Below, in pieces: positions 2 through 13,753 of a DNA stretch of 45,088 nucleotides. This DNA comes from Acidimicrobiia bacterium. GTDB taxonomy: Bacteria; Actinomycetota; Acidimicrobiia; Acidimicrobiales; VFJN01. The position numbers and the translations under genes are program-made. The stretch's first letter is position 1. The number at the start of each line of letters is the position of its first letter. Under the pieces are notes generated by a model. It ran no database searches and had not been told where the DNA came from. It saw nothing but the letters and a program-made list of their open reading frames with translations. The stretch is from the NCBI GenBank assembly GCA_009694375.1, contig SHVB01000019.1:1-45088 (forward strand), written 5' to 3'.

Positions 2-301
2 TTAGTCCCGTGCTTCGTATTGCACCGCGGCGCGCTCGGCCGAGATGGGGGCGATGTAGTCGGCGATGATGGCCTGATGGGTCGGGTCGGCCCGGTACGC
101 CTCGTACCCGGCGCGGTCGTCGAAGTCGGCGACGACGGCGAAGTGGAAGTTTCCGGCGTTGACCTCAGCGTCGGGGCCGAAGCGGAACGCTCGGATCGAG
201 GGGATGATTCCCGGCAAGGAACGGAGGCCGTTACTGACGGCCACTTTCTGGGCCTCGGTAGCTTCGGGGACCCACCGGAACATCACGACGTGGCGGAACA
301 T
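2..301 (-). CDS. Dabb-family (stress-responsive A/B barrel) protein
   Basis: A 99-residue protein that begins MFRHVVMFRW and has the layout of the Dabb family: an N-terminal HVVMF strand, a central stretch on FRFGPDAE, a hydrophobic FHFAVVADF strand and a C-terminal DPTHQAI segment. Members are small dimeric ferredoxin-like barrels; some act as cyclases or dehydratases in natural-product and aromatic metabolism, many have no known role. The length fits a single-domain member. The ATG at 301 is chosen; a GTG one codon upstream is possible. It is transcribed away from the SDR at 498, and a near-palindromic 13-mer lies about 31 bp upstream of its start. The stop codon is at the left edge, so the gene is complete. 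The family call is solid, the function is not known. Confidence 0.85.
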   Translation of the reverse strand: MFRHVVMFRWVPEATEAQKVAVSNGLRSLPGIIPSIRAFRFGPDAEVNAGNFHFAVVADFDDRAGYEAYRADPTHQAIIADYIAPISAERAAVQYEARD

Positions 302-332: not shown

Positions 333-345
333 TAAACAGTGTTCA
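333..345. promoter_or_regulatory. Putative operator, site 1 of 4
   Basis: On the minus strand this reads TGAACACTGTTTA, a near-palindrome around AACA-C-TGTT. It lies between the divergent Dabb gene and the small ORF/SDR pair. Similar 13-mers occur at 1298-1310, 4570-4582 and 7806-7818, each just upstream of a catabolic gene. A possible plus-strand -10 box, TACGGT, is at 355-360. Size and symmetry suit a TetR-like repressor, but the binding protein is not in the window. Confidence 0.5.
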
Positions 346-388
346 GGCTCCTGTTACGGTGTGCCCAGCGGAAACGAGGGAGACCCAC

Positions 389-493
389 ATGTCGCTTGTT
401 GCAGGGACAGCCATCGGCACGACCGCCTCGGCGGAGTGCTGCGATGGGGCCACCATCGCCGACCCCGCGCTGCCCACCGCCGAGGCGGGCTGA
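389..493 (+). CDS. Possible 34-residue peptide upstream of SDR
   Basis: An ATG at 389 follows a purine-rich GAGGGAG at a suitable distance and opens a 34-codon frame (MSLVAGTAIGTTASAECC...) that stops at 491-493, four bases before the SDR start. It contains an adjacent Cys-Cys pair and is otherwise rich in Ala, Thr and Gly. It sits about 43 nt downstream of operator site 1, the same spacing as between site 2 and the CCO start at 1353. It may be a translated leader that couples to the SDR, or a real small peptide. I recognise no family; it could also be untranslated leader sequence. Confidence 0.3.
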   Translation: MSLVAGTAIGTTASAECCDGATIADPALPTAEAG

Positions 494-497
494 TCCG

Positions 498-1253
498 ATG
501 GATCTTGGGCTCACGGGCCGGCGGGCCGCCGTGGCGGCATCATCGGCCGGTCTCGGGTTCCACGCCGCTCGCGCCCTGGGTCGCGAGGGGGCACGGGTGG
601 CCATCAGCGGGCGCGACGACGCCCGGCGAGCTGCCGCCCTCACCGCCTTGCGAGCCGAGGGCATCGACGCCGTGGCCGTGGCGGCCGATGTCTCCACTCC
701 CGCTGGGGCCGAGGCCTTCGTCGGCTCGTGCATCGATGAACTTGGTGGCGTCGACATCCTCATCGCCAACGCCGGTGGACCCCCACCCGGCACCTTCGCC
801 ACCACCACCCTCGACGCCTACCGCCAGGCGCTTGATCTCAACCTCCTCTCTACCGTCGCCATGTGTAAGCAGGCGGTGCCGGGCATGCAGGAAGCCCGCT
901 GGGGACGCGTGGTGGCCATCACCTCCATCGCGGTACGGCAGCCCATCGCCTCGTTGATGGCCTCCACCACGGCGCGTGCCGGGGTCACCGGCTTCCTGAA
1001 GGTGCTCGCCACCGAGGTGGCCGCTGACGGGGTGACCGTGAACTCCCTCCAGCCCGGTGTGCACGCCACCGATCGCCTGGCGTCGATGCCGCCCGCCGCC
1101 CTGGCGGCACTCATGGCCGACATACCCATCGGTCGGCTCGGCGACCCGGCCGCCTTTGGTTCGGCGGTGGCGTTCCTGTGCAGCGTTGACGCCGGCTTCA
1201 TCACCGGTACCTGCCTCCCCGTCGACGGGGGCGCCGCCCGGGGATTGTTGTGA
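498..1253 (+). CDS. SDR-family oxidoreductase, noncanonical BKR-like
   Basis: A 251-residue protein with the Rossmann fold of short-chain dehydrogenases: coenzyme loop around AASSAGLG (residues 11-18), an IANAG motif after strand 4 and a C-terminal LPVDGG. Two signatures differ from classical SDRs. The first Gly of TGxxxGxG is Ala, and the SxxxYxxxK site is altered: after TSIAVRQP, Ser stands where Tyr is expected and Arg where Lys is expected. This matches a known BKR-like SDR subgroup with an imperfect coenzyme motif and tetrad, so substrate and even catalysis are open. The ATG at 498 follows the small frame at 389 by four bases, suggesting coupling. It is upstream of a CCO gene and probably acts in the same pathway, for example on alcohol or ketone intermediates. 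Confidence 0.85.
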   Translation: MDLGLTGRRAAVAASSAGLGFHAARALGREGARVAISGRDDARRAAALTALRAEGIDAVAVAADVSTPAGAEAFVGSCIDELGGVDILIANAGGPPPGTFATTTLDAYRQALDLNLLSTVAMCKQAVPGMQEARWGRVVAITSIAVRQPIASLMASTTARAGVTGFLKVLATEVAADGVTVNSLQPGVHATDRLASMPPAALAALMADIPIGRLGDPAAFGSAVAFLCSVDAGFITGTCLPVDGGAARGLL

Positions 1254-1289
1254 CCGGGGTGTTCCCGAGACAGGGTTGATCTCCTCCGG

Positions 1290-1310
1290 TAGGATGGTGA
1301 ACACCGTTAG
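1290..1310 (+). promoter_or_regulatory. Promoter with putative operator, site 2 of 4
   Basis: TAGGAT at 1290-1295 resembles an actinobacterial -10 box. Two bases later comes the 13-mer TGAACACCGTTAG (1298-1310), which shares the ACACYGT core with sites 1, 3 and 4. It ends 42 nt before the CCO start at 1353. A repressor bound here would cover the transcription start. The same order, a TA-rich hexamer, two bases, then TGAACAC, recurs at site 4. Confidence 0.5.
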
Positions 1311-1352
1311 GCCGCAGTTTTGCGGGCGGCGCAAAGCCACCACGAAGGACTC

Positions 1353-3074
1353 ATGTCGACCCCACACTCTTTGACGACCGCGCCACACGCCGATTTCGAA
1401 CTTGAGGTGGTGGAGGGGGTCTGGCCCGAGGACATCAGCGGGGAAATGGTGTTCTCCAGCCCCCTGCGGTGCACGCCGATGGACTACTCCATCTTCGACT
1501 GGGGCTCGATTTGCCGCCTGTCCCTCGCCGCCGGAACGCGCGGGGCGGGCCCGGGGCGCTTCGCCTGGCAGACACGTTCGATTCAGTCGCCCGGCAAGCG
1601 ACTGTGGGATCGGCTGCCCGAGCAGTTCACCACCACTGGCACCGGATACCAGTCCCCGCTGGGCCCGGCGAACGCCTCCAACACCGCCCCGCTGCCGTGG
1701 GGGGGACGTCTCTACACGACCTGGGATGCCGGACGACCGATCGAGTTGCACCCCGACACCCTCGAGTTCGTGGCGGAGGTTGGCCACCGCGACAGTTGGG
1801 GAGGGAACTCGCTGGAAATGCCCGGCATCATGCCGTTCCTGTTGTCGACCGCCCATCCCGTGGTGGACCCTGAGCGCGACTGCCTCTGGTCGGTGAAGTT
1901 GGAATTCGTGATGGAGCCCAGCATTGGTCTGCGCCCATCGGTGGTGCGCTACGACGCCACCGACGGGACCCAGGTGCGCCACTGGCCGCTGGAGGGGGTT
2001 TCCTTTTTGGGCTCCACTCACACCGTGAGCCAGACCCGCGACTGGCTGATCCTCGCCGACTCCGGCAACTTCAAGCCCGATCCGGCGGAAATGTTCGGCG
2101 GCGAGCGCGTGCTGACCATTGACCATGAGGTACCCGTCTGGCTGATCCGCAAGGACCAACTCGACGGCCTCGCCACCGGTACGCCGGTGACCCCCATCAC
2201 CCTCACCATGGCACCCCCCGCCGGTCACTTCTACGCTCGCTGGGACGATTCCGACGGCATCTCGGTGGTGTGGGAAGGCATGGACCTCATGGACCTCGCC
2301 TTCTACCTGAAGGCCGATGACCTCGACGTCAACGGCAACCCCATGGACCCCGCCGCCGTGGGTCTCTACAACATGGCGATGGCCCCCGAGACGATCGTGG
2401 AGGTGCTCTTCGACCCCGAGTCGGGCAAGGCCATCGAACGGGGCCTCTATCGCGAAGACTGGACGTTCAACCTGCAGCTTTCCGCCATGGACTGGTCGAC
2501 CGAAGGTCTGACCAAGCCCACCCTGCACCACGTGACCTACCAGGGCTGCCGCCCCTCCAACATCTCGCTCCGGGCCGCCACGCTCTACGCCGACCGCATC
2601 GACCTCGACCAACTCCGCCAGGCCACCCCCGGCGCGCTCGCCACCTTCGAGCGGGGTTCGATGGAACTCAAGGCCAAGTGGGACTACCCCAACCTGGACG
2701 ATCACATCACCTCTCCTACCTTTGCCCCGCGGGGGTGCGGGAGCTCCGGCGCCCAGAGCGCCTATGCCGGTGGGGAACCCGGCGGCCACGACGGCTACGT
2801 GCTGCAACCGGTGATGTCCGATGACGGCTTCCGCCTGGAGCTCTTCGATGCGGCTGCCGTGGGGAAGGGTCCCATCGCGGTGCTGAAGGGCACGAACCGG
2901 GAGTGTGTGCCGATGGTCCTTCACTCAGCGTGGATGCCCTCCTACCACGACCTCGTGGACGCTGAGCGGCTGCGTTTCTCCGATGAGTTGAGCGACGACC
3001 TCATGGCCAGCGTGCCCGAGGAGTTGCACGGTGCGATCCGCGAGGTAGCGACGGAGTGTGACGAACTCTTCTGA
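1353..3074 (+). CDS. Divergent carotenoid oxygenase (RPE65/CCO) family protein
   Basis: A 573-residue protein of the carotenoid cleavage oxygenase superfamily, non-haem Fe(II) enzymes that split a C=C bond of carotenoids, apocarotenoids or stilbenes with O2. The blade motif ANASNTAPLPWGGRLYTTWD (106-125) matches the conserved NT..W.G.L...WE region. Four candidate iron-binding histidines appear in the right order and context: H168 in STAHPVVDP, H223 in STHTVSQ, H292 in AGHFYARW and H524 in VLHSAWMP. It is longer than typical bacterial members (about 480) and distant from the neighbour at 3084, with extra sequence around residues 320-470. The ATG at 1353 is the first suitable start after promoter site 2. 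The two CCO genes are tail to tail with a 9-bp gap. Family is well supported; cleavage site and substrate are unknown. Confidence 0.85.
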   Translation: MSTPHSLTTAPHADFELEVVEGVWPEDISGEMVFSSPLRCTPMDYSIFDWGSICRLSLAAGTRGAGPGRFAWQTRSIQSPGKRLWDRLPEQFTTTGTGYQSPLGPANASNTAPLPWGGRLYTTWDAGRPIELHPDTLEFVAEVGHRDSWGGNSLEMPGIMPFLLSTAHPVVDPERDCLWSVKLEFVMEPSIGLRPSVVRYDATDGTQVRHWPLEGVSFLGSTHTVSQTRDWLILADSGNFKPDPAEMFGGERVLTIDHEVPVWLIRKDQLDGLATGTPVTPITLTMAPPAGHFYARWDDSDGISVVWEGMDLMDLAFYLKADDLDVNGNPMDPAAVGLYNMAMAPETIVEVLFDPESGKAIERGLYREDWTFNLQLSAMDWSTEGLTKPTLHHVTYQGCRPSNISLRAATLYADRIDLDQLRQATPGALATFERGSMELKAKWDYPNLDDHITSPTFAPRGCGSSGAQSAYAGGEPGGHDGYVLQPVMSDDGFRLELFDAAAVGKGPIAVLKGTNRECVPMVLHSAWMPSYHDLVDAERLRFSDELSDDLMASVPEELHGAIREVATECDELF

Positions 3075-3083
3075 GGCCGCCGC

Positions 3084-4523
3084 CTACCGCTCAGCGGCGG
3101 CGAACCAGTTGGCGTGGAACCCGAAGGGCATGCGTTGGGTTAGATGCACCCGGGCGATCGGCCCGGCGGTCACATTGCCAGCATCCAGTACGCAGACGTC
3201 GGTGCGATCAGTGGCGTCGTCGTACACGGCATTGAGGAGCCAGCCGTCGTCCTCGCCGTGGCCCTGCGGGTTCGGCACGAAGACGCTCTCCCCCACATGG
3301 CCGGTGGGGCCGGAGTTCCAGATCTGACGCTCCCCGCTGGCATCGTCGTATCTCACGATGCTGTCGAAGTCGCCCAGTCGTCGTTGGGGGGCGACGGTGG
3401 CGGACATGTAGTGATAGCGCGAGCGCACTCCGTTGAAATCGTCGTTGAAGCGGGCAAAATCGCCACCGAGGTCGTCGGTCTGATCCCAGCCGGCTTTGTC
3501 GGCGGCGAGGTCTACCCAGAAGCGCGCCGGATACGGCGGGGTGTTGTCGCCGCCCGGCGCATCCGGTGGGGCAGTGGAGTCGATGCCGAAGTCGGGGTGC
3601 TCGAATCGGGTACCGGAGAACTCGATACGGTCGCCGTCGGCCCAGCCGTTCCAGAAGTGCTGGACATGCCCGGCGTCGATATCGAACCAGCGCACCTCGT
3701 CGCCGGTGCCGTGGCGGGGGATCACGCCGATGCGGGCACCATTTTCCGGACGCCACTGCACCATGGGCCCTTTCCCCAGGTTGGCAATATCGAAGACGAT
3801 GGGGGAGTCGAGGAACACGGCATGGTGCTCGGTGATGATGAAGTCGTGCATCATCACCGGCGCCGGCAGGGTGATCTTGGCGCGGTGCACGAGCGCGCCG
3901 TGGGCGTCGACGACGTAGTAGCGAATGACGGGTTCCAACACCGAGTAACCGAAGAAGAACATCTCGCCGGTGCGCGGATCGATCCGAGGATGGGCCGTCA
4001 TGGCGCCGGTGAGACTTCCGTCGAAGGTGTACTCGCCCACCGTGTCGAGGTCGGCGGTGACCTCGGTGGGGAGCCCTCCCTCCCACAGCGCCAGGTACCG
4101 CCCGGCGTGGCGCACGATGTGGGTGTTGGCCGGGTTCTTCACCGGTCCGGCGTCGCCCACCAGCGCGGGTTCCGGGAAGTTCATGACATCGCCCAGACCC
4201 GGATAGACCGCCCGCCCGAGGTCGGCTTCGGCCCGCAACCCGCGCGACCGGATCCACCGATTGCGGTAGGACGCTCCGCCACCGTCGAAGGTCACCCCGT
4301 GCAGCATGCCGTCGCCGTCGAACATGTGGTACCGGCCCACCGGTTGGAACAGTGGGTTCGGCCCGTTACGGATGAAGGAGCCCTGCAGCCCGGCGGGAAG
4401 CTGGCCGGTGATGGCCAACTTGGCCACGTCAACCTCAACGTCCACCGGAAACAGATTGCCGGCTAGGTCGGGCTGGTTATCCTGGCGGCTGACGTTTCCG
4501 GTAAGGGTGGTGGCGACGTGCAT
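3084..4523 (-). CDS. Carotenoid cleavage oxygenase (apocarotenoid/lignostilbene type)
   Basis: A 479-residue canonical CCO: GSFIRNGPNPLF (48-59) near the N terminus, FDGDGMLHG (68-76), LWEGGLP, and the four iron ligands H178 (MTAHPRIDP), H226 (MMHDFIIT), H289 (HVQHFWNGW) and H470 (FGFHANWFA). Such enzymes cleave a conjugated double bond to give two aldehydes or ketones, using O2 and no reductase. No signal peptide is seen, so it is cytoplasmic. The ATG at 4523 follows a GGAG-like sequence and lies about 46 nt from operator site 3. It is convergent with the divergent CCO at 1353; the pair under a shared operator motif suggests two successive or alternative cleavage steps. A lignostilbene-type substrate is the main alternative to an apocarotenoid. 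Confidence 0.93.
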   Translation of the reverse strand: MHVATTLTGNVSRQDNQPDLAGNLFPVDVEVDVAKLAITGQLPAGLQGSFIRNGPNPLFQPVGRYHMFDGDGMLHGVTFDGGGASYRNRWIRSRGLRAEADLGRAVYPGLGDVMNFPEPALVGDAGPVKNPANTHIVRHAGRYLALWEGGLPTEVTADLDTVGEYTFDGSLTGAMTAHPRIDPRTGEMFFFGYSVLEPVIRYYVVDAHGALVHRAKITLPAPVMMHDFIITEHHAVFLDSPIVFDIANLGKGPMVQWRPENGARIGVIPRHGTGDEVRWFDIDAGHVQHFWNGWADGDRIEFSGTRFEHPDFGIDSTAPPDAPGGDNTPPYPARFWVDLAADKAGWDQTDDLGGDFARFNDDFNGVRSRYHYMSATVAPQRRLGDFDSIVRYDDASGERQIWNSGPTGHVGESVFVPNPQGHGEDDGWLLNAVYDDATDRTDVCVLDAGNVTAGPIARVHLTQRMPFGFHANWFAAAER

Positions 4524-4569
4524 GGATGCTCCTTGGTGGTGGCCCTGACGGGGCCGCTACCCCTATAAC

Positions 4570-4582
4570 TTTACACCGTTTA
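4570..4582. promoter_or_regulatory. Putative operator, site 3 of 4
   Basis: TTTACACCGTTTA on the plus strand, aligned base for base with sites 1, 2 and 4 through the core ACACCGTT. It lies about 46 bp upstream of the CCO start at 4523. On the minus strand it is followed by TATAGG-like bases that may form the -10 box. The convergent end of the esterase gene is at 4628, so the only gene this site can serve is the CCO. Confidence 0.5.
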
Positions 4583-4627
4583 CCATCAGGGCACGCGTGC
4601 CGTCGTTGCTCAGGGTGGTCGCCCGCC

Positions 4628-5731
4628 CTACCCGGCCCGGCCCGGAAGGGCGGCGAAGAAGTCCCAGATCAGGCTGGTGGCATCGATGTCCAGGTTGGTG
4701 AGCAACACGTTTTGGGCCATCGAGGCCGGGGTCTCACCGATGGCGGGGGGGAGCGGATTGGCGGGTTGGGTAGCGTTCCCGGTGAGGACAGCAGTGAGGA
4801 GGTCCTCGGTAACGGGCATCGGATGCCCAGGCCAGGAGTGACCGTGCTTCCGTAACCGGTACAGCACCGTGGGGGCCGCACACCGAGTCCAGCGGACCGA
4901 CTCCACCGTTGGGGTCACCGCCGCCACCTCCGGCGTTCCGGCACAGCCGTTACGGGCCGCGACGGCTTCGAGCGCGTCGGTTACGGGGACGAAGGTGCCG
5001 GCCTGTTCACTGCGGCGACCTTCGAAGGGGGTGATGATGTCGTCGAGGCCATGAAAAGCCAGCGTAGGGATGGCCCGGCCCGTCGGGGGACATTCGGCGG
5101 ACTGGTAGGCCGCCGCCACCGCCGCCACCGCCACGATGCGCTCGGGGAGGGCGCAGGCCACGACCAGGGCGATGTAGCCGCCGGCGGAGAACCCGGTGGC
5201 GTAGACCCGCGACGGATCGATGCAGGTCTGAGCGCCGAGTTCGTCGAGCAGCGCCGCCACGAAGGCAGGTTCGTCAACCTCGTTTCCCTCGGGGTCCCAT
5301 CCGCTGGCCCCGGTGACCTGGTCGGACAAGCCCACGAGGAGGCCCTCGGGGTGGACCGACACGAATCCGTGCTCGTCGGACTGGGCGGCCAAGCCGTCGG
5401 TGGCGCCTTGGAGGGCGGCGTTTCCGCTGAAGCCGTGGAACGACAGCACCACCGGGAGGGGCTCGGCGCGGGCGACCGTGGCGGTGGGGGAGGCGGGCAG
5501 ATGCACGAGAGCGGTTCGCTCCCTGCCTTGGACCGTCACCTTGATCCGGTCGATGGGACCGTGGGGCAGACCATCGCTACAGGCGGCACTGGCCACGGCG
5601 GCGACGGTGGTGGGGGTGATGGCGGGCGTGGCGGTGTTGTTGCCCCCGCAGGCGGCGGTGGTCATCGCCAGAGCCCCGACCAACCCCGCAACCCGGACGA
5701 TTCGGGACCCACGATGACCCCTGGTAATCAC
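4628..5731 (-). CDS. Lipoprotein esterase, PHB-depolymerase/LpqC-like
   Basis: A 367-residue alpha/beta-hydrolase exported as a lipoprotein. The N terminus is basic, then hydrophobic, ending in TTAACGG with Cys28 as the likely lipidated residue, followed by a Thr/Ala-rich linker. The catalytic domain has an oxyanion-type LSFHGF, the nucleophile elbow GFSAGG (Ser182), an acidic residue in HGLDD (230/231) and the histidine in HGHSWPG (near 298). This matches the polyhydroxybutyrate depolymerase/feruloyl esterase group. The start is GTG at 5731, overlapping the stop of the upstream lipoprotein gene by GTGA; longer upstream reading would destroy the signal peptide. It is third in an operon after a Rieske oxygenase. 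It probably hydrolyses an ester outside the membrane, perhaps releasing substrate for uptake. Confidence 0.85.
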   Translation of the reverse strand: MITRGHRGSRIVRVAGLVGALAMTTAACGGNNTATPAITPTTVAAVASAACSDGLPHGPIDRIKVTVQGRERTALVHLPASPTATVARAEPLPVVLSFHGFSGNAALQGATDGLAAQSDEHGFVSVHPEGLLVGLSDQVTGASGWDPEGNEVDEPAFVAALLDELGAQTCIDPSRVYATGFSAGGYIALVVACALPERIVAVAAVAAAYQSAECPPTGRAIPTLAFHGLDDIITPFEGRRSEQAGTFVPVTDALEAVAARNGCAGTPEVAAVTPTVESVRWTRCAAPTVLYRLRKHGHSWPGHPMPVTEDLLTAVLTGNATQPANPLPPAIGETPASMAQNVLLTNLDIDATSLIWDFFAALPGRAG

Positions 5732-6540
5732 CAGTCGGCGAGGGGCTGGGGCGGGAAGATGCTGGCGCGCTCGGCGGCGAGTCGGTCGCAATCCCAGTCG
5801 GCTCCGACGCGTTTCCAAATCACCGGATTCCGGGCCGGATCGTCGATCTGCTTCCACTGGGCGGCCACCAGGAAAGCCGGATTGCTGGCGCCCAGGATCA
5901 GTTGCTCGGACTTATCGGTGATCGTCCCGGTGAGGAGGTCGGGGCTCTGGCTGGTGAGGTTGTAAATGAAGATCTCCCGCCGGGCCAGGTAGATATCGCC
6001 GCGCAGCGCGTCGCTGACCTTCACCGAGGAGGTCACCCCGGGATGGCCATCGCCGTCGGCATCAAAGATGCGAGGGTCGTTGGGATCACTGGGTAAGGCT
6101 TCGGTGGCGGGGTTGTCGATCTTGATGCCGATCGGGGTGGGCGTGGGGGGGCGTGCGATGTGCAGTTTGCCGTTTACCTCTGTCACCTCGACCGGCGTGG
6201 CGATAGGCACAATCGCCTGAGTGGCGGCGTCGGAGATCGTGATCTCCAGGTTCACGTCGTTGGCCACATCGGCATGACAGAACGTCATGGCGTTCCACAA
6301 CTCGCCGTCGCGCAGTTCGAGGTCGGAGAATCCGGTGCTGATGATCAGGACCTTCATCGTGGTGTCTTCGTACGCCACTACGTCGTAGTGGGCGTAGCGA
6401 CCGACGAGGTCCTCCGTCCCGGCGGGCAGGTCGCCGGCGTCGCTGGCCGTGTCGGTGTTCGAGCCCGAGGAACACGCCGCTACCACCAGGGCCAGCAGTA
6501 GGCCCAGCCCCAGAAGCCGTCGGGTCGGTGCCATGCTCAT
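5728..6540 (-). CDS. Lipoprotein of unknown function with Ca2+-loop-like motif
   Basis: A 270-residue predicted lipoprotein: Arg-Arg at 7-8, a hydrophobic core and the lipobox VVAAC with Cys23. A Ser/Thr/Asp-rich linker follows, then a domain I do not recognise. At 160-168 it carries DADGDGHPG, a loop like the calcium-binding DxDxDGxxG of EF-hand or thrombospondin-type repeats. Other visible pieces are a single Cys in TFCHADV and a Trp/Asp-rich C terminus. The ATG at 6540 overlaps the Rieske stop by ATGA, and its own stop overlaps the esterase start by GTGA, so it is tightly coupled between an oxygenase and an exported esterase. A substrate-binding or enzyme-support role on the cell surface is a guess. 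Confidence 0.8.
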   Translation of the reverse strand: MSMAPTRRLLGLGLLLALVVAACSSGSNTDTASDAGDLPAGTEDLVGRYAHYDVVAYEDTTMKVLIISTGFSDLELRDGELWNAMTFCHADVANDVNLEITISDAATQAIVPIATPVEVTEVNGKLHIARPPTPTPIGIKIDNPATEALPSDPNDPRIFDADGDGHPGVTSSVKVSDALRGDIYLARREIFIYNLTSQSPDLLTGTITDKSEQLILGASNPAFLVAAQWKQIDDPARNPVIWKRVGADWDCDRLAAERASIFPPQPLADW

Positions 6541-7751
6541 GCCGATTCCACGTAGCCGTCGAGCGCATCGGATACGGCCGTGCCGACCGGGAGGAGGTCG
6601 GGCCCGATGGCCAGGTCGACCGCCCGCTCGAAATGATGGATGAGCCGTTCGTGCCAGCCGATGTGGAACGGCCGGGCACCGGGCGAGGAAATCGAGGCCT
6701 GGATGGGGGCCATGTTGGCCTGGTCCTGCGCCATCACCGTGTCGAAAAGCACCATGCGGTCGAGGTGTTCTTGGGGCACCTCATCACCGGCCCAGGCCGG
6801 CGCATACCAGCGCAGTTCGAGATCGGTGGTGGTGCCACTGGTGGGCCACATGCACAAGAAGGTAAATGCCCCGGTGTCCATGGGGACCACCAGGTTGGGG
6901 AAGATACCGAAGGAGGTTGAGGTCTGACGCCACAGCAACGGGACCGCCGGGTTGTCGTTCTCCTCGGAGACCATGGCGAAGTCGCGGAAAGCGTCATGCT
7001 TCTCCACCGTGAGTCGACTGTTGCCGTGGGGCAGCATCGTGACCGTCGCCGACTGGTCGTTGTAGAGGAAGGCGGCGTTGTCGGGGTGCACCGTGCGCAC
7101 GTGGTACACCTCGAGAAAAGCGTCGACCATGAGCTTCCAGTTGCAATCGAGCCGGTGCACCTGGGTGCCCACCGCCCGCATCGCCGGACCGTCGATCTCC
7201 GCCATCTGATCCGCAATGGGCCCGAGGAACTCAACCAGCGGCACGGCCTGGGCATCCTCGCTGATGAAGACCCAGCCGTCCCATGTCTCGCAACGCACCG
7301 GCACCAGCCCCAACGATCCCTGGTCGAGATCGGCGAAACTGCGGGAATCGGGAACCGACTTGAGGGTGCCGTCGGTGCCGTAGGACCAGGAGTGGTACTG
7401 ACACGTCAGTCGCCGGGCGGTGCCGCACTCGTCGCGGGTGACGGGGGCGCCGCGGTGGCGACAGGCGTTGTAGAAGCCGCGTAGCTCGCCGTCGTCACCG
7501 CGCACCACCACGATGGGTGCTCCCGACCGAGTGGTGAGCCGATACGAGCCCGACTGCGGCCATTCGGACTCATGGCCGACGAACAGCCAACTGCGGCCAA
7601 AGATCCGTTGCTTCTCCAGTTCGTAAAACGCCGAGTCGGTGTAGCGGCCCACCGGAATGACCGGGATCTCTACCGCCTCGGCGGGCGGCGCGGTGCGGGC
7701 CTTCTCCTGGTCGATGCGCTCCCGGATGGTCCGTTCCAACGTGGCGTCCAT
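6537..7751 (-). CDS. Rieske non-haem iron oxygenase, alpha subunit
   Basis: A 404-residue aromatic-ring-hydroxylating-type oxygenase. The Rieske [2Fe-2S] cluster ligands are C97-R-H99 and C117-Q-Y-H120. The mononuclear iron ligands are H217 and H222 in EVYHVRTVHPD, with D343 in AQDQAN completing the 2-His-1-carboxylate site. Such enzymes hydroxylate, demethylate or dihydroxylate with electrons from a ferredoxin or reductase; no reductase or beta subunit is in this operon. The ATG at 7751 has AAGGAG six bases upstream, which excludes a longer N terminus. It heads a three-gene operon with two lipoproteins and is divergent from the amidohydrolase operon, sharing operator site 4. Substrate unknown. 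Confidence 0.93.
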   Translation of the reverse strand: MDATLERTIRERIDQEKARTAPPAEAVEIPVIPVGRYTDSAFYELEKQRIFGRSWLFVGHESEWPQSGSYRLTTRSGAPIVVVRGDDGELRGFYNACRHRGAPVTRDECGTARRLTCQYHSWSYGTDGTLKSVPDSRSFADLDQGSLGLVPVRCETWDGWVFISEDAQAVPLVEFLGPIADQMAEIDGPAMRAVGTQVHRLDCNWKLMVDAFLEVYHVRTVHPDNAAFLYNDQSATVTMLPHGNSRLTVEKHDAFRDFAMVSEENDNPAVPLLWRQTSTSFGIFPNLVVPMDTGAFTFLCMWPTSGTTTDLELRWYAPAWAGDEVPQEHLDRMVLFDTVMAQDQANMAPIQASISSPGARPFHIGWHERLIHHFERAVDLAIGPDLLPVGTAVSDALDGYVESA

Positions 7752-7797
7752 GCGTCTCCTTGTGTCGGGCCCAGAGTGGTGGTGCGGCCTCATTTGC

Positions 7798-7818
7798 TAC
7801 GGTACTGAACACTGTAAA
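7798..7818. promoter_or_regulatory. Divergent promoter with putative operator, site 4 of 4
   Basis: TACGGT at 7798-7803 is a possible plus-strand -10 box, and two bases later the 13-mer TGAACACTGTAAA (7806-7818) matches sites 1-3. It lies 28 bp before the GTG at 7847 and about 47 bp before the Rieske start at 7751. Bound protein could control both operons. On the minus strand, TACCGT or TAGCAA next to it may be the Rieske -10. Confidence 0.5.
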
Positions 7819-7846: not shown

Positions 7847-9193
7847 GTGATTCCAAGCAACCCATCCGGGGTGCTGATCTCCGGTGGTTCGGTGATTTCC
7901 GGCCGGGGTGACGCGCGGCAGGCCGACACGGACGTGTTCATCAGCGGCGATGTGATCGTGGCGGTGGGGGAGCCGGCCCGGGAGTTGGCCCGCGTCGCCG
8001 GCCCGGGGGTGGAGCAGGTGGATGCCACCGGGCTCACCGTCATGCCCGGCCTCATCGACGCTCATTGCCACATCAGCTTCGGCGAACCGGCCAGTAACGA
8101 CGAATTGTTCTTCCATCGCGATCAGTCCACCGCCGCCATGCTGGCGGCGTTCAACGTGCGGAAGTTGTTGCTCGCCGGTGTCACCGGCTTCCTCGATGCC
8201 GACTGCCTCTGGAACATCGGACCGGCGTTACGCGACAGCATCGAGGCCGGGATTGTTCCGGGCCCGAGAATGACCTCGGGGATGAACGCGCTCCTCACTA
8301 CCGCCGGAGGCACGGCGGGCCGCCTGATTCCCGATACGGGCACCGCCGCCTACGCCCACGTGATGGGCAACCGCGACGAGATGGTGCGGACCACGCGGCA
8401 GCAGATCAAGTACGGAGCCGACTGGGTCAAGATCCACGTCACCGGGTCGCTCCCCAATCGCCAGGGCGAACTCACCGTGTGGAGCTTGGACGAACTCCGA
8501 GCCGTCACCGATACCGCCCACGCCCTCGACACGCCCACGATCGCCCACTGCCGCAACGCCCACGCCACCCGGTTGGCCGCCGAAGCGGGCGTGGACATGA
8601 TCCTGCACGCCAGTTTCATCGACGAGCCCGCCCTGGCCGCCGTGGTGGAAGCAGGCTGTGCCATTGTCCCCACCTTCACCTTTCTGGCCAACCTGGCCGA
8701 CCACGGCGCCAAGGTGGGCGCGCTCAGCACCCAGGTGGAGTTGTTCCGAGGTGAGATCGATGCCACCGCGACGATGTTGCGCACCGCCCACGACGCCGGC
8801 GTGCCAATCCTCTCGGGATCCGAGAGCGGCTTCGCCCTCACGCCCTACGGCCACTGGCACGCCCGCGAGATGGAGGTGCTGGTGGAGGCGATGGGACTCA
8901 GCGCGCTCGAGGCCATTCGCTGTGCCACCTATAACGGGGCACGGGCCCTGCGCATGGATGAGGGCACCATCGGGGTGGTGGAGGTGGGCGCGGCAGCCGA
9001 TCTCCTCGTCGTGCACGGCGACCCATCTCGAGATGTGACGGTGCTCGGCGACCGATCCAACCTGCGTCACGTGTTCTCGCGGGGTCGGGCCGTAGATCTC
9101 GCCGGCCCCTGGCCCGAGCGTGACCCACTCCCCGGCGAGAAGGTGGGCCAGTGGGCTGCTGATCTACTCACCTGGGAACGGGCCCACCGATGA
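7847..9193 (+). CDS. Metal-dependent amidohydrolase (imidazolonepropionase/prolidase-like)
   Basis: A 448-residue amidohydrolase-superfamily TIM barrel with flanking beta-sandwich. Metal-site residues include H73-C-H75 in DAHCHI, a candidate bridging Lys195 in DWVKIHV, H234 in IAHCR and H254 in LHASF. In the strand-8 position, where relatives have Asp in GTDSG, this protein has GSESG (Glu326), an unusual replacement. The C-terminal GTIGVVEVGAAADLLVVHGDP is typical. Such enzymes hydrolyse amide, lactam or ester-like bonds of small cyclic or peptide substrates. The GTG at 7847 is chosen because of AAAGGGGG eight bases upstream; reading further back crosses the promoter. Its stop overlaps the SDR start by ATGA. 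First gene of a plus-strand operon. Confidence 0.88.
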   Translation: MIPSNPSGVLISGGSVISGRGDARQADTDVFISGDVIVAVGEPARELARVAGPGVEQVDATGLTVMPGLIDAHCHISFGEPASNDELFFHRDQSTAAMLAAFNVRKLLLAGVTGFLDADCLWNIGPALRDSIEAGIVPGPRMTSGMNALLTTAGGTAGRLIPDTGTAAYAHVMGNRDEMVRTTRQQIKYGADWVKIHVTGSLPNRQGELTVWSLDELRAVTDTAHALDTPTIAHCRNAHATRLAAEAGVDMILHASFIDEPALAAVVEAGCAIVPTFTFLANLADHGAKVGALSTQVELFRGEIDATATMLRTAHDAGVPILSGSESGFALTPYGHWHAREMEVLVEAMGLSALEAIRCATYNGARALRMDEGTIGVVEVGAAADLLVVHGDPSRDVTVLGDRSNLRHVFSRGRAVDLAGPWPERDPLPGEKVGQWAADLLTWERAHR

Positions 9194-9990
9194 GCCTCAC
9201 CGTGGTGGTCACCGGCGCGGGTCATGGCTTGGGCGCGGCCATTGCGGCCGCCGCCGCCGCCGTGGGCTGGCGCGTGGGGGTGCTCGACCGTGACGGGGAG
9301 GCCGCCGCCCGCACCGTCGCCGCCATCGGCGACCACGCCGTGGCCCTAACCGCCGACATAACCGTGGAAGCCGACATGGACCGGGCCCTCGATCTCTTTG
9401 CCGATGCCACCGGCCAAGCGGCCCCCGACGGGTTGGTGGCCAACGCCGGCATCGTGCGGTTCGGACCCCTCGCCACGGTGTCGGTGGAGGATTGGCGGGC
9501 CGTGGTGGACGTGAACCTGACCGGGACGTTCATTGCCGCCCGTGGGGTGGCCCGGCGCATGCGGGCGGCGGGGACCGCCGGGTCGCTGGTGACGGTCACC
9601 TCCATGAACGGGGTGGCGCCGGGACCCAACGCCGGCGCCTACGGCGCCACCAAAGCCGGGGTGGCGCTGCTCACCCAGCAGATGGCCATCGAGTGGGGTC
9701 CCGATCGGATCCGCTGCAACGCCGTGGCCCCCGGGCTCATCGATGCCGGCATGTCCGAGCCGGTCTACGCCGATGCCGAGATTCGGGAACTCCGAGCCGC
9801 CCGCGTGCCCTTGGGCCGATTGGGTACGGCGCAGGACGTGGCCCAGGCCGTGTTGTTTCTGCTCTCCGAGGAGGCCGGCTACATCAACGGGATCGAACTG
9901 CTCGTGGATGGGGGGGTCACTTCCACGGTGATGAGCACCCTGCCCCGACCGGCGTCGGTCGACACGGTCGGACCTGCGGGGGGCTCCTAA
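9190..9990 (+). CDS. Classical SDR oxidoreductase
   Basis: A 266-residue classical short-chain dehydrogenase. It has TGAGHGLG for dinucleotide binding (8-15), an Asp at the end of strand 2 in VLDRDG that favours NAD(H), NAG in strand 4, the catalytic TSMNGVAPG...AYGATKAG (Ser, Tyr, Lys) and the C-terminal LLVDGG. It most likely oxidises a secondary alcohol or reduces a ketone. The ATG at 9190 overlaps the amidohydrolase stop by ATGA and the next gene starts three bases after its stop, so all are probably translated from one message. It has a longer tail after DGG (about 25 residues, Pro/Gly-rich) than usual. Substrate unknown. Confidence 0.93.
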   Translation: MSLTVVVTGAGHGLGAAIAAAAAAVGWRVGVLDRDGEAAARTVAAIGDHAVALTADITVEADMDRALDLFADATGQAAPDGLVANAGIVRFGPLATVSVEDWRAVVDVNLTGTFIAARGVARRMRAAGTAGSLVTVTSMNGVAPGPNAGAYGATKAGVALLTQQMAIEWGPDRIRCNAVAPGLIDAGMSEPVYADAEIRELRAARVPLGRLGTAQDVAQAVLFLLSEEAGYINGIELLVDGGVTSTVMSTLPRPASVDTVGPAGGS

Positions 9991-9993
9991 GCG

Positions 9994-10734
9994 ATGATGG
10001 CCCGTAACCTGATGATCTCTGGTGGTCCCCTCCACGATTTCGCCGCCACCACCGCAGTGCTGGCCGAGGTGCTAGCCGAGGAGGGCGTGCAGTCCACCGT
10101 GTTCGACGACCCGCACGCCGGTCTGCTGGCCCTGGCGGACGGCGCTGGCACCTGGGACCTCGTCACCGTGAACGCGCTGCGATGGCAGATGGGATCCGCC
10201 CGCCACGCGCCGCTGCGAGACCGCTGGGCGTTCACCCTGAGCGACGGCGAAGCGGAGATCATCGACGGCTACGTGCGCGGCGGGGGCAGCCTGCTGGCGT
10301 GTCATGGCGCATCCATCTGCTTCGACGGCGATCCGCGGTGGGCGGCGTGCATCGGGGCCACGTGGAACTGGGACCGGTCGTCGCACCCTCCTCAGGGGTT
10401 GGCGGTTATCTCGTCCACCGGGATGGGTCGGAGTCATCCCATCACCGCCGGCATCGCCGAGTTCACCACGGTCGATGAGATCTACGGCTTCCTCGACTAC
10501 GACACCGGGTTGGAGCCGTTGCTCACCAGCGCCCATGGGGGCCAAGATCATCCGGTGCTCTGGGCCCGCTTGGTGGGACGCGGGCGGGTGGTGACCGACG
10601 TGCTTGGGCACGACGCGGCGGCGATGACCCATCCGATGCACCGATTGATTCTGCGGCGAGCCGCCCGGTGGCTGATGTCGGTCGATGCGCCCACCGACAG
10701 GTGGCCACAACCGGCGGGTGACCCCACCCCATGA
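9994..10734 (+). CDS. ThuA-like domain protein
   Basis: A 246-residue protein of the ThuA-like, glutamine-amidotransferase-like fold. Seen motifs are MISGGPLHDF at the start, GGGSLLACHGAS (about 90-101), GRSHPITAGIAEF followed by TVDEIYGF, and a closing GRGRVVTDVLGHD. These are typical of ThuA, linked to trehalose and other disaccharide use, but the molecular activity of the family is poorly known. The start at 9994 is three bases after the SDR stop, and the stop overlaps the P450 start by ATGA. Its place between an SDR and a P450 hints at a role in the same catabolic route, possibly on glycosylated substrates; this is inference. Confidence 0.82.
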   Translation: MMARNLMISGGPLHDFAATTAVLAEVLAEEGVQSTVFDDPHAGLLALADGAGTWDLVTVNALRWQMGSARHAPLRDRWAFTLSDGEAEIIDGYVRGGGSLLACHGASICFDGDPRWAACIGATWNWDRSSHPPQGLAVISSTGMGRSHPITAGIAEFTTVDEIYGFLDYDTGLEPLLTSAHGGQDHPVLWARLVGRGRVVTDVLGHDAAAMTHPMHRLILRRAARWLMSVDAPTDRWPQPAGDPTP

Positions 10735-11942
10735 CCGACCGTCTCGAGATCACCGTCTCCAGTTACCACCAGGCCCGGGAAGCGTTCCGTCAGAAGGGGT
10801 TGCGCCAGGCCCTCTACGACGAGGGTGAGGTGGTGATGTCCGATGTGCTCGTGAACCTGCATGGCGCCGATCACCAGGCCCGTCGCCGCCTCGAGAACCG
10901 CCTGTTTCGCAAGGACACCCACCGCCTCTACGAGCGCGAGTTCTTCCCGCCGGTGGTGGCGGCCACGCTCGCTCCCCACGCGGCCAACGGCCACGCCGAG
11001 TTGGTGACCCTGAGCCACGAGCTGATGATGAACCTCGCCGCCTTCACGGCCGGGGTGGATCGTCCGCACGGCACTCGTGAGGAGACCATGCGCCTCTACG
11101 ACTATCTGATGCTCTTCATCCAGGGGGCCACCCTCGCTCATTACACCGGCGACCGCGCCGCCAAGCGGGAAGAAGTAGCCCAGGCCCTGGCGGCGTTCGA
11201 ATCCGAGTTTCTGCGGCCGTCGATTCAGCGACGCCGGGGGCTGCTCGCCGCCGTGGAGGACGGATCGGGGGAGGAAGCGGACCTCCCGCGCGATGTGCTC
11301 ACGACCCTGTTACGCAACGACGCCGAACTGCACCTGCCCTCGGAGGTGATCCTGCGAGAAACCTGCTTTTTCCTCCTGGCCGGCGCCCACACGAGTGCCA
11401 CCGCCTTCGTGCGCACCCTCCACAACGTGTATGCCATGGGCGAGGAGCACCCGGAGGACTTCGAGCAGGCCTGCACGGACCTGGCGTTTCTTCAGCGATG
11501 TGTGCACGAGACGGTGCGCTTGCAACCGTCGAGCCCGATCGCCATGCGGTACGCGCTGGACGAGGCCGACCTGCTCGGCGAAGTGCACATCCCCGCCGGG
11601 GCCTTTGTGATCATCGACCTGATGGCGGCTAACCGTGATCCGTCCGTCTTTGGTGAGGGCGCCCATGACTTCGACCCCCATCGCCTCCTGGAACCGGGCG
11701 TGGCCCCGTGGGGATTGAGCTTCGGTCTCGGCATGCACGCCTGCATCGGTCAGGACCTGGCGGCGGGCATCGACCCGATGGGCCATCCCGTGGGCGATGA
11801 CCACCTCTACGGGCTCGTCCCGGTGGCGATCCGGGCGCTGCTCGATGCCGGAGGGCGGCCCGACCCGGCTGATCCGCCCACGATGGATCCCGACAACAGC
11901 CGGGGCTACTGGGGCCGCTACCCGGTGGTGTTTCCGGCGTGA
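10731..11942 (+). CDS. Cytochrome P450
   Basis: A 403-residue soluble bacterial P450. The I-helix oxygen-binding motif AGAHT is at 217-221, ExxR is E260-TV-R263, and the haem loop FGLGMHACIG holds the axial ligand Cys338. It binds haem, uses O2 and two electrons, and hydroxylates or epoxidises a hydrophobic substrate. No membrane anchor is present. The ATG at 10731 overlaps the ThuA stop by ATGA; the stop overlaps the next gene by GTGA. The likely electron donor is the ferredoxin at 16515; no ferredoxin reductase lies in the window. CYP family not assignable by eye. Confidence 0.95.
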   Translation: MTDRLEITVSSYHQAREAFRQKGLRQALYDEGEVVMSDVLVNLHGADHQARRRLENRLFRKDTHRLYEREFFPPVVAATLAPHAANGHAELVTLSHELMMNLAAFTAGVDRPHGTREETMRLYDYLMLFIQGATLAHYTGDRAAKREEVAQALAAFESEFLRPSIQRRRGLLAAVEDGSGEEADLPRDVLTTLLRNDAELHLPSEVILRETCFFLLAGAHTSATAFVRTLHNVYAMGEEHPEDFEQACTDLAFLQRCVHETVRLQPSSPIAMRYALDEADLLGEVHIPAGAFVIIDLMAANRDPSVFGEGAHDFDPHRLLEPGVAPWGLSFGLGMHACIGQDLAAGIDPMGHPVGDDHLYGLVPVAIRALLDAGGRPDPADPPTMDPDNSRGYWGRYPVVFPA

Positions 11943-12958
11943 TCGACCTGCACGCCCATGTGGTGTTGGAACAGACCCTCGGCGCAGCCGGTCGCTACGG
12001 TCCGGACCTCGACGAGGGCGACGCCGCCGTCGCTCGCCTGCCCTGCTACCGCGTGGGCGACTACCAACTGCTTGGGGTGCGTTACCGAGACAGCGCCTTC
12101 ATGGACGTAGATCGGCGCCTTGAACAGATGGACGAGCGCGGCATCGACCTACAGGTCCTTTCCCCCAATCCGCTCACCTTCTTCCACCACATCGACTCGA
12201 CCACCGCGATTGCCTTCAGTCGTTGTCAAAACGATGGCCTGGCCGCCATCGTGGGCCGCCATCGTGGGCGGCTGGCCGGTCTGGCCCAGTTGCCGATGCA
12301 GGACCCCGCCCACGCGGTGGCGGAGTTGCATCGGGCGGTGTCCGAATTGGGGCTGCTCGGCGCCTACATCGGCACCGATCTCGGTCGACCGCTCGACGAC
12401 CCGGCCTTCGACGTGGTCTACCGGGCCTGCATCGACCTCGATGTTCCCCTGTTCATCCATCCCGCGCCCGGCGGCATCGATGCCCCCCGGCGAGACGACC
12501 GGATGGCTCGCTTCGACGCCGACCTGTGGCTCGGCTTCGCCCACGAGGAAGCCCTGGCGGTGGCCACCCTGGTGCTCGGCGGGGTGTTGGCTCGCCACGA
12601 GGAACTCGACGTGTGTGTGTCGCACGGGGGCGGGTCCACTACCTGGCTAGCCGAGCGAATGCGCCATGCCGCCACTACCCGACCCTGGGCCGACGCCGCC
12701 CTACGCGCCGAGGGTGTGGTCGATGCCCTGGTGGGCCGCCTGTGGTGGGACGCCCACGTAGGAGGTCCCCGGGCGTTGGCCATGCTAGTGGCGGCGGCGG
12801 GGACGGATCGATTAGTGGGGGGAACCAATTTCGCCGGCTGGGACGAGACCGCCGATCCCAGTTATGGCGATGCCAGCCTGGCGGCCACGCTCGATGCCAA
12901 CGCCCTTCGATTGCTGCGGCTCCCGCCCGGGGTTCCGGCCCCTCGCCCCCCCACCTAG
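11939..12958 (+). CDS. ACMSD-like amidohydrolase (Amidohydro_2)
   Basis: A 339-residue amidohydrolase of the ACMSD group (2-amino-3-carboxymuconate-6-semialdehyde decarboxylase and relatives), which decarboxylate or hydrolyse ring-derived acids. Metal ligands: H5-A-H7 at the N terminus, His in LFIHPAP and His in VSHGGG. The usual strand-8 Asp position reads GGTNFAGWDE, with Asn as in many Amidohydro_2 proteins. The internal LAQLPMQDPAHAVAELHRA is characteristic. The GTG start at 11939 overlaps the P450 stop by GTGA. Position right after the P450 suggests that it acts on a product of oxidation, but the reaction cannot be named. Confidence 0.87.
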   Translation: MIDLHAHVVLEQTLGAAGRYGPDLDEGDAAVARLPCYRVGDYQLLGVRYRDSAFMDVDRRLEQMDERGIDLQVLSPNPLTFFHHIDSTTAIAFSRCQNDGLAAIVGRHRGRLAGLAQLPMQDPAHAVAELHRAVSELGLLGAYIGTDLGRPLDDPAFDVVYRACIDLDVPLFIHPAPGGIDAPRRDDRMARFDADLWLGFAHEEALAVATLVLGGVLARHEELDVCVSHGGGSTTWLAERMRHAATTRPWADAALRAEGVVDALVGRLWWDAHVGGPRALAMLVAAAGTDRLVGGTNFAGWDETADPSYGDASLAATLDANALRLLRLPPGVPAPRPPT

Positions 12959-12970
12959 CCGCGCCGCCGC

Positions 12971-13753
12971 ATGATCGTCCTTCTCGGCACCACCCTGGCC
13001 GCCACCCTCAGCTGCATGCTGGCGCTGTGGGCCCTCAGCATCCGGCGCCGTGATCCGAGTTTCGTCGATGCCTGGTGGCCGCTCGGGTTTGTGCTGGTGG
13101 CCTGGATCTCCCTGCTGATGAGCCACGGCGATCCCACTCGTCAGGCCCTCCTGGTGGGCATCACCACTCTCTGGGGCTTGCGTCTCAGCGGCTACCTCTT
13201 TTGGCGGTGGCGGCGCAACGGACCGGACCCGCGCTACGCCAGCATGCTCCGTCATTCCTCGGGCAACCCCCACCTCTTCACGTTGCGCAACGTGTTCCTC
13301 TTGCAAGGGGCACTTCTTTGGATCGTCTCCCTGCCCTTGCAGTTGGGTCAGTGGTATCCCAACCCGCCGGGATTGCTGTTCCCGGGGATGGTCGGGGTGG
13401 TGCTGTGTGTGGTGGGGGGCGCTTTCGAGATCATCGGTGACGCGCAGTTGGTGCGTTTCAAAGCCCAACCAGCCAACGCCGGTCGGGTGATGGACCAGGG
13501 GCTCTGGCGCTATACCCGTCACCCGAACTACTTCGGGGACGCTTTGCTCTGGTGGGGCCTCACGCTCATCGCGGTGGTGAACCCCGTCACCGCCATCGCC
13601 ATTGCGAGCCCGTGTGTGATGACGTTCCTGCTGGCCCGCTGGAGTGGGGTGGGGCCGCTGGAACGCCGCCTCACCCGCCACAAACCCGACTACGCCCACT
13701 ACGTGGCCCGCACCAGTGGCTTCATTCCGCGGCCTCCTCGGGGTGGGGGATGA
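12971..13753 (+). CDS. DUF1295 / steroid 5-alpha-reductase-like membrane protein
   Basis: A 260-residue integral membrane protein with about six hydrophobic segments. The C-terminal signature GLWRYTRHPNYFGDALLWWG (about 176-195) defines the DUF1295 family, related to steroid 5-alpha reductases and isoprenylcysteine methyltransferases that bind NADPH or SAM through this region. A likely role is reduction of an enone or alkene in a lipid or terpenoid, but DUF1295 proteins are largely uncharacterised. The ATG at 12971 comes 12 bases after the preceding stop, so it is probably the last gene of the operon that begins at 7847. It converges with the amidohydrolase ending at 13761. Confidence 0.88.
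   Translation: MIVLLGTTLAATLSCMLALWALSIRRRDPSFVDAWWPLGFVLVAWISLLMSHGDPTRQALLVGITTLWGLRLSGYLFWRWRRNGPDPRYASMLRHSSGNPHLFTLRNVFLLQGALLWIVSLPLQLGQWYPNPPGLLFPGMVGVVLCVVGGAFEIIGDAQLVRFKAQPANAGRVMDQGLWRYTRHPNYFGDALLWWGLTLIAVVNPVTAIAIASPCVMTFLLARWSGVGPLERRLTRHKPDYAHYVARTSGFIPRPPRGGG

Follow-up and report, generated by a model that had tools for sequence, protein, structure and literature searches.

KstR is a TetR repressor that acts through dispersed AAC/GTT operators, with a two-base gap in its sites, and governs an oxygenase-rich cholesterol-catabolism regulon in actinobacteria. CcoR, a TetR/AcrR-family regulator, controls an adjoining carotenoid cleavage oxygenase (CCO) gene in Mycobacterium kansasii (CcoR-cco1, MKAN_RS18575/18580; Rv0653c-Rv0654 in M. 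tuberculosis), where disruption of ccoR raised cco1 100-fold (PMC9861118). BioQ, a TetR-family regulator that governs biotin genes, has the predicted corynebacterial operator TGAAC-N3-GTTCA (PMC3398298). The sequence analyzed here is a 45,088-nucleotide contig of an Acidimicrobiia bacterium (the window; contig C19 of a 2.58-Mb assembly that is 96% complete, genome G000). It contains four 13-bp near-palindromes at the promoters of genes annotated as encoding carotenoid-oxygenase-type degradation, and one regulator, a TetR-family repressor encoded elsewhere in the genome, very probably coordinates these genes, as judged from the DNA sequence.

The CcoR system is a single divergent gene pair for which no operator is reported in the accessible text of PMC9861118, whereas in the predicted regulon here one operator recurs at multiple promoters of unlinked loci (those of three CCO genes, a Rieske oxygenase gene, a P450 operon, and a transporter). 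The consensus of that operator, TNAACACTGTTNA, contains TGAAC-N3-GTTCA and equals the BioQ site in half-sites and spacing. A literature search on Acidimicrobiia carotenoid-oxygenase regulons found no report.

Four shared sites in the window

A sequence-only reading of the window had proposed that four aligned 13-mers join the catabolic genes on its left side in one regulon. All four were present, with exactly the coordinates and strands proposed, upstream of genes for a Dabb-domain protein, short-chain dehydrogenases (SDRs), two CCO-family proteins, a Rieske oxygenase, and an amidohydrolase:

333..345, - strand: operator A, TGAACACTGTTTA (TAAACAGTGTTCA on the + strand), in the divergent promoter region between Dabb and a small open reading frame (ORF) preceding SDR1; rank 1 in the window
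1298..1310, + strand: operator B, TGAACACCGTTAG, upstream of CCO1; rank 4
4570..4582, + strand: operator C, TTTACACCGTTTA, upstream of CCO2 (gene on the - strand); rank 3
7806..7818, + strand: operator D, TGAACACTGTAAA, in the divergent Rieske/amidohydrolase promoter region; rank 2

When the window was scanned with a matrix derived only from sites of other genera, these four sites were ranks 1 to 4 in 45 kb (scores of 24.7, 20.1, 17.2, and 14.7), and the fifth-best match (8.9) overlapped operator D. Nothing in the right-hand operons scored above 6.6 on this scale, in agreement with the earlier statement that the motif was not seen there by eye. The best common 13-mer over the four intergenic regions scored 69.96, compared to a mean of 54.9 (standard deviation, 1.9) and a maximum of 62.5 for shuffled sequences, and none of 500 shuffles reached the real score. 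The ACAC[CT]GT core that had been proposed was not enriched by itself in the window (9 matches versus 9.2 expected), and the consensus with up to three mismatches was no better than chance (14 matches versus 13.2 expected). The full four-way agreement across 13 bp was significant; the informative core was AAC-N3-GTT rather than ACAC[CT]GT.

Distances of 28 to 50 bp to gene starts had been claimed, which held for five starts (28 to 46 bp) and was slightly exceeded for the Rieske gene. Operator A was 31 bp from the Dabb ATG and 43 bp from the start of the small ORF (389), operator B was 42 bp from the CCO1 start (1353), operator C was 46 bp from the CCO2 start (4523), and operator D was 28 bp from the amidohydrolase GTG (7847) and 54 bp from the Rieske ATG (7751). 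Two sites, those at 1298 and 7806, follow a TA hexamer (TAGGAT and TACGGT, respectively) by two bases, as had been noted.

Conservation of the site in related genomes

With CCO1 as the query, 16 loci were fetched; the closest named relatives were Microthrixaceae, Acidimicrobiales, and other Actinomycetota metagenome-assembled genomes (MAGs). A matrix made from the four window sites alone was applied to 150-bp intergenic upstream regions at 14 loci of other genera. Orthologous promoters were where the sequence-only reading had expected the motif, and a site was found upstream of 31 of the 48 orthologous CCO1, CCO2, Rieske, amidohydrolase, Dabb, and SDR1 promoters, compared to 1 of 89 other genes (Fisher, P = 2e-17, a value inflated by relatedness and divergent promoters). 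Two of the CCO1 promoters lacking a site (L077 and L081) were attributable to mis-called starts, because good sites lay just beyond the 150-bp window. Sites in relatives preceded CCO1, CCO2, Rieske, amidohydrolase, Dabb/SDR1 (seen in L075 to L077), and transporter genes, and the in-operon genes SDR2, ThuA, P450, and amidohydrolase2 had no upstream site in these relatives.

Operators B and D were unchanged between the genome and its sibling species (B at locus L074; D identical in genome G075), and operator D was also found in L077. The flanks of operator C had diverged in the sibling locus L074, with TTAACACCGTTTA retained. Counts in genomes of the family were consistent with this distribution: G249, G264, and G005 contained 7 to 9 sites each, compared to 0 to 1 for the reversed pattern, and no sites were found in G143 and G023, which lack CCO1 and a strong match to the TetR group described below.

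Interpretation of the sites as coincidental or as a generic promoter element, such as an extended -10/-35 signature, draws on the lack of enrichment of the short core and on the fixed spacing of two sites after a TA hexamer. This interpretation is highly improbable: coincidence is contradicted by the ranking with the other-genera matrix and by the shuffle test, and the palindrome was confined to one gene set (the 31/48 versus 1/89 comparison), stood at varying positions with respect to the -10 box, and was absent from family members without the genes.

The relatives sharpened the site to a perfect palindrome with an odd center, TTAACACTGTTAA or TGAACACTGTTCA. The refined operator is TNAAC-ACT-GTTNA, in which the AAC and GTT half-sites are three bases apart, a gap that differs from that of KstR sites. 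Given the same half-sites and spacing as the predicted corynebacterial BioQ site, and the occurrence of TGAACACTGTTCA in a bioY primer (PMC3398298), the sites could be imagined to be BioQ boxes belonging to a biotin regulon. The chance of this appears very small; the bioB region of the genome (L249) contained no site scoring at least 10, the putative targets look catabolic (oxygenases, hydrolases, and a transporter rather than biotin genes), and the associated TetR genes adjoin CCO genes.

A candidate TetR regulator

The sequence-only reading would have been weakened by a motif common at random positions in the genome. Few good matches were found beyond the window, three of them at promoters (C5:129686, C25:7485, and C5:78417). 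This rarity and the presence of the site at orthologous promoters support the one-regulon reading of the window genes, and the predicted regulon extends past the window to a third CCO gene (CCO3), a liv-type ABC transporter, a TetR gene, and probably a P450 gene. The C5:129686 site, CTAACACTGTTCA, lies between CCO3 and a divergent operon coding for a substrate-binding protein, a fused liv-type permease, and, as its last gene, the TetR protein. The site at C25:7485-7497 (L112:3986-3998), CTAACACTGTTTA, is a probable further regulon member; the same sequence was found in a second genome of the genus (G169:C34; L258:1501-1513), and it lies between a P450 gene and a gene for a 537-amino-acid secreted protein. 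The match at C2:7507 (IclR/leuC-like promoter) was rejected as a member, with a score of 13.8 and about 12 such matches expected by chance genome-wide, as were C7:117519, C9:5571, and C9:81464, which are inside coding sequences. A fourth carotenoid-oxygenase gene (G000:C3:186685-188001; L281) had no motif upstream, and the motif therefore does not mark CCO genes in general.

Of the window genes that were called and scanned, none was recognized as encoding a transcription factor. A TetR- or GntR-like gene carrying the motif at its own promoter had been suggested as the regulator; the genome-wide motif search led to such a gene outside the window, of the TetR rather than the GntR type, with the site at the promoter of its operon:

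G000:C5, about 125,777-126,391 (L114:777-1391, - strand): TetR regulator (TetR_N PF00440 plus TetR_C_33 PF13305)

The predicted protein (the C5 TetR) matched PF00440 with 32.3 bits (cut-off, 24) and PF13305 with 48.5 bits (cut-off, 26.8). The KstR model had no match to it and gave 25.3 bits (cut-off, 280) to the TetR of one relative (L075). The operon is divergent from CCO3, which matches the TetR-beside-CCO arrangement of CcoR; the likeness drawn here is one of gene arrangement.

Similar TetR genes adjoin motif-bearing CCO operons in L075, L076, L079, and L083. These four and the C5 TetR were aligned (alignment A1), 298 genomes of the order were searched with the alignment, and up to 14.6 kb of sequence around the TetR genes was retrieved. 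Near the 31 strong TetR matches, 17 sites scoring at least 18 were found (0.1 expected from shuffles), compared to 2 near the 27 weak matches. Among the strong TetR loci, the motif was present in 15 of 16 with a CCO gene and 0 of 15 without one (Fisher, P = 5.7e-8); two of the loci had helped to choose the TetRs and two were same-genus copies, and 11 loci remain without these four. TetR genes of this subfamily were directly beside CCO genes in L195, L196, L197, L209, L210, L214, L217, and L219, with sites beside both genes in L195, L196, and L219. Two clades of the TetR tree were motif-bearing throughout: clade A (9 rows; support, 99/97), which includes the C5 TetR and is associated with CCO3 and the transporter, and clade B (7 rows; support, 99/94), which is associated with CCO1/CCO2. 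Outside the order, A1 had no matches at 1e-35 in 296 sampled genomes of the phylum. In another actinobacterial genome (L269), a CCO gene with a divergent, unrelated 185-amino-acid gene was accompanied by a different inverted repeat, TGACATGTCACTGATGACATGTCA, which suggests another CCO regulator elsewhere in the phylum.

These comparisons indicate with good confidence that a single transcription factor of the TetR family, most likely the C5 TetR, has the four 13-mers as its operators. Comparison of genomes gives good support to a TetR regulon that would resemble CcoR-cco1 and have an operator of BioQ-like architecture. Several observations weigh against this assignment. The P values overstate independence, because the species are related and divergent promoters were counted twice. 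Operator A, the strongest in the genome, was partly decayed in the sibling locus L074 (TCAACGGTGTTCG), L087 contained the gene cluster without good sites, and the amidohydrolase promoter had a good site in just 2 of the 8 relatives with intergenic space. The candidate regulator is outside the window and does not adjoin its genes. The CCO1/CCO2 cluster in relatives was linked to clade-B TetRs, to which the clade-A TetR of this genome is 36 to 38% identical; the genome has clade A only, and clade B might be missing from the 96%-complete assembly, although the sibling G075 likewise has clade A only.

The same association with clade B, together with the incompleteness of the assembly, would favor true operators of a single regulator other than the C5 TetR, either a clade-B TetR that is missing from the assembly or a member of another family. 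This is unlikely: G075 has the cluster with a clade-A TetR alone, and the operon promoter of the clade-A TetR bears the site in three same-genus genomes. None of the TetR genes in the genome had a site scoring at least 12 with the window matrix in its roughly 3-kb surroundings (about 1.5 kb each way), and the site of the C5 TetR is 3.3 kb from its gene, at the operon head. Tentatively, and with less than even expectation, an order-specific, multilocus TetR regulon may control an undescribed CCO-Rieske-P450-amidohydrolase pathway with a liv-type importer, the ancestral clade-B regulator having been lost in this genus and its operators having passed to the CCO3-linked clade-A paralogue, so that two regulons became one.

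Target genes and predicted promoter control

Genes and possible -10 boxes in the left part of the window, from gene calls, Pfam matches, and hexamer positions, were as follows:

2..301, - strand: Dabb-domain protein (PF07876; gene call), regulon gene
354..359, + strand: TACGGT hexamer, a possible -10 box for transcription of the small ORF and SDR1, lying 8 bp downstream from operator A (predicted from sequence and the geometry profile)
498..1253, + strand: SDR1, short-chain dehydrogenase (Pfam; gene call), regulon gene
1290..1295, + strand: TAGGAT hexamer, a possible -10 box for CCO1, with operator B starting 2 bp later (from sequence)
1353..3074, + strand: CCO1, divergent RPE65/carotenoid-oxygenase-family protein (PF03055; gene call), regulon gene
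3084..4523, - strand: CCO2, carotenoid/lignostilbene-type dioxygenase (PF03055; NCBIfam matches below equivalog cut-offs), regulon gene
Between CCO2 and the lipoprotein-like gene: esterase gene (gene call)
5728..6540, - strand: lipoprotein-like 270-amino-acid protein of the Rieske operon, without a Pfam match
6537..7751, - strand: Rieske oxygenase alpha subunit (PF00848 plus PF00355; gene call), regulon gene
7799..7804, + strand: TACGGT hexamer, a possible -10 box for the amidohydrolase operon, with operator D starting 2 bp later (predicted from sequence and geometry)
7847..13753, + strand: amidohydrolase-SDR2-ThuA-P450-amidohydrolase2-DUF1295 operon (Pfam)

RPE65 domain scores were 75.7 bits for CCO1, 435.3 bits for CCO2, and 394.1 bits for CCO3 (cut-off, 27). 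CCO2 and CCO3 fell far under the cut-off of the apocarotenoid dioxygenase model and that of the lignostilbene dioxygenase model alike. The amidohydrolase-P450 operon is presumably driven by the promoter at operator D, and its gene order was kept in several relatives (e.g., L075 to L077, L084, and L086). The lipoprotein-like protein was conserved (orthologues in L075 to L088) and repeatedly neighbored Rieske or CCO genes in relatives. The small ORF between operator A and SDR1 (389-493, + strand; 34 codons, MSLVAGTAIGTTASAECCDGATIADPALPTAEAG) has a purine-rich stretch upstream and was also uninterrupted in the sibling species, where two amino acids differ.

In a profile of TANNNT hexamer positions at 83 oriented pairs of site and gene, the background was about one hexamer per offset. 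Hexamers were overrepresented ending two bases before the operator (8 cases, including operators B and D) and starting 9 to 11 bases after it (13 cases; offset 22-24 class), and a third peak, at offset 10, was made partly by the last bases of the operator itself. The first two offsets place the operators across the likely transcription start or within the -35/-10 spacer of the predicted promoters, both of which are classic locations for obstructing polymerase. Activators exist among TetR proteins, FasR being an example. The possibility that the same TetR acts on these sites as an activator or dual regulator draws on the offset 22-24 class, in which an operator 9 to 11 bp before the -10 box is not exclusively in a repressing position. 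It is quite unlikely, since an operator directly behind the -10 box overlies the start point, where it would be blocking, and since CcoR, the nearest studied system, is a repressor (PMC9861118).

The favored reading is repression by the TetR protein that a compound of the pathway lifts. Bound within the spacer or over the start point, a TetR dimer would obstruct RNA polymerase at the promoters of Dabb/SDR1, CCO1, CCO2, Rieske, amidohydrolase-P450, and CCO3/ABC transporter. Its release by a pathway substrate or product, which may be an apocarotenoid- or stilbene-like compound or the coenzyme A (CoA) ester of such a compound, would turn on uptake and degradation together. The presence of an importer, oxygenases, and dehydrogenases under one operator fits a catabolic regulon.

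A motif noticed by eye thereby becomes a testable regulon for which a candidate regulator is named, a consensus operator defined, and a list of conserved targets drawn up. The Acidimicrobiia-type bacteria concerned have been little studied, and most of them are uncultured and represented by MAGs. The co-regulated genes, which encode three CCO-family oxygenases, a Rieske oxygenase, a P450, amidohydrolases, dehydrogenases, and a transporter, sketch a single catabolic pathway. Its substrate, which may be an isoprenoid- or stilbene-like natural product, could be searched for via ligands that release the TetR protein from its operator.

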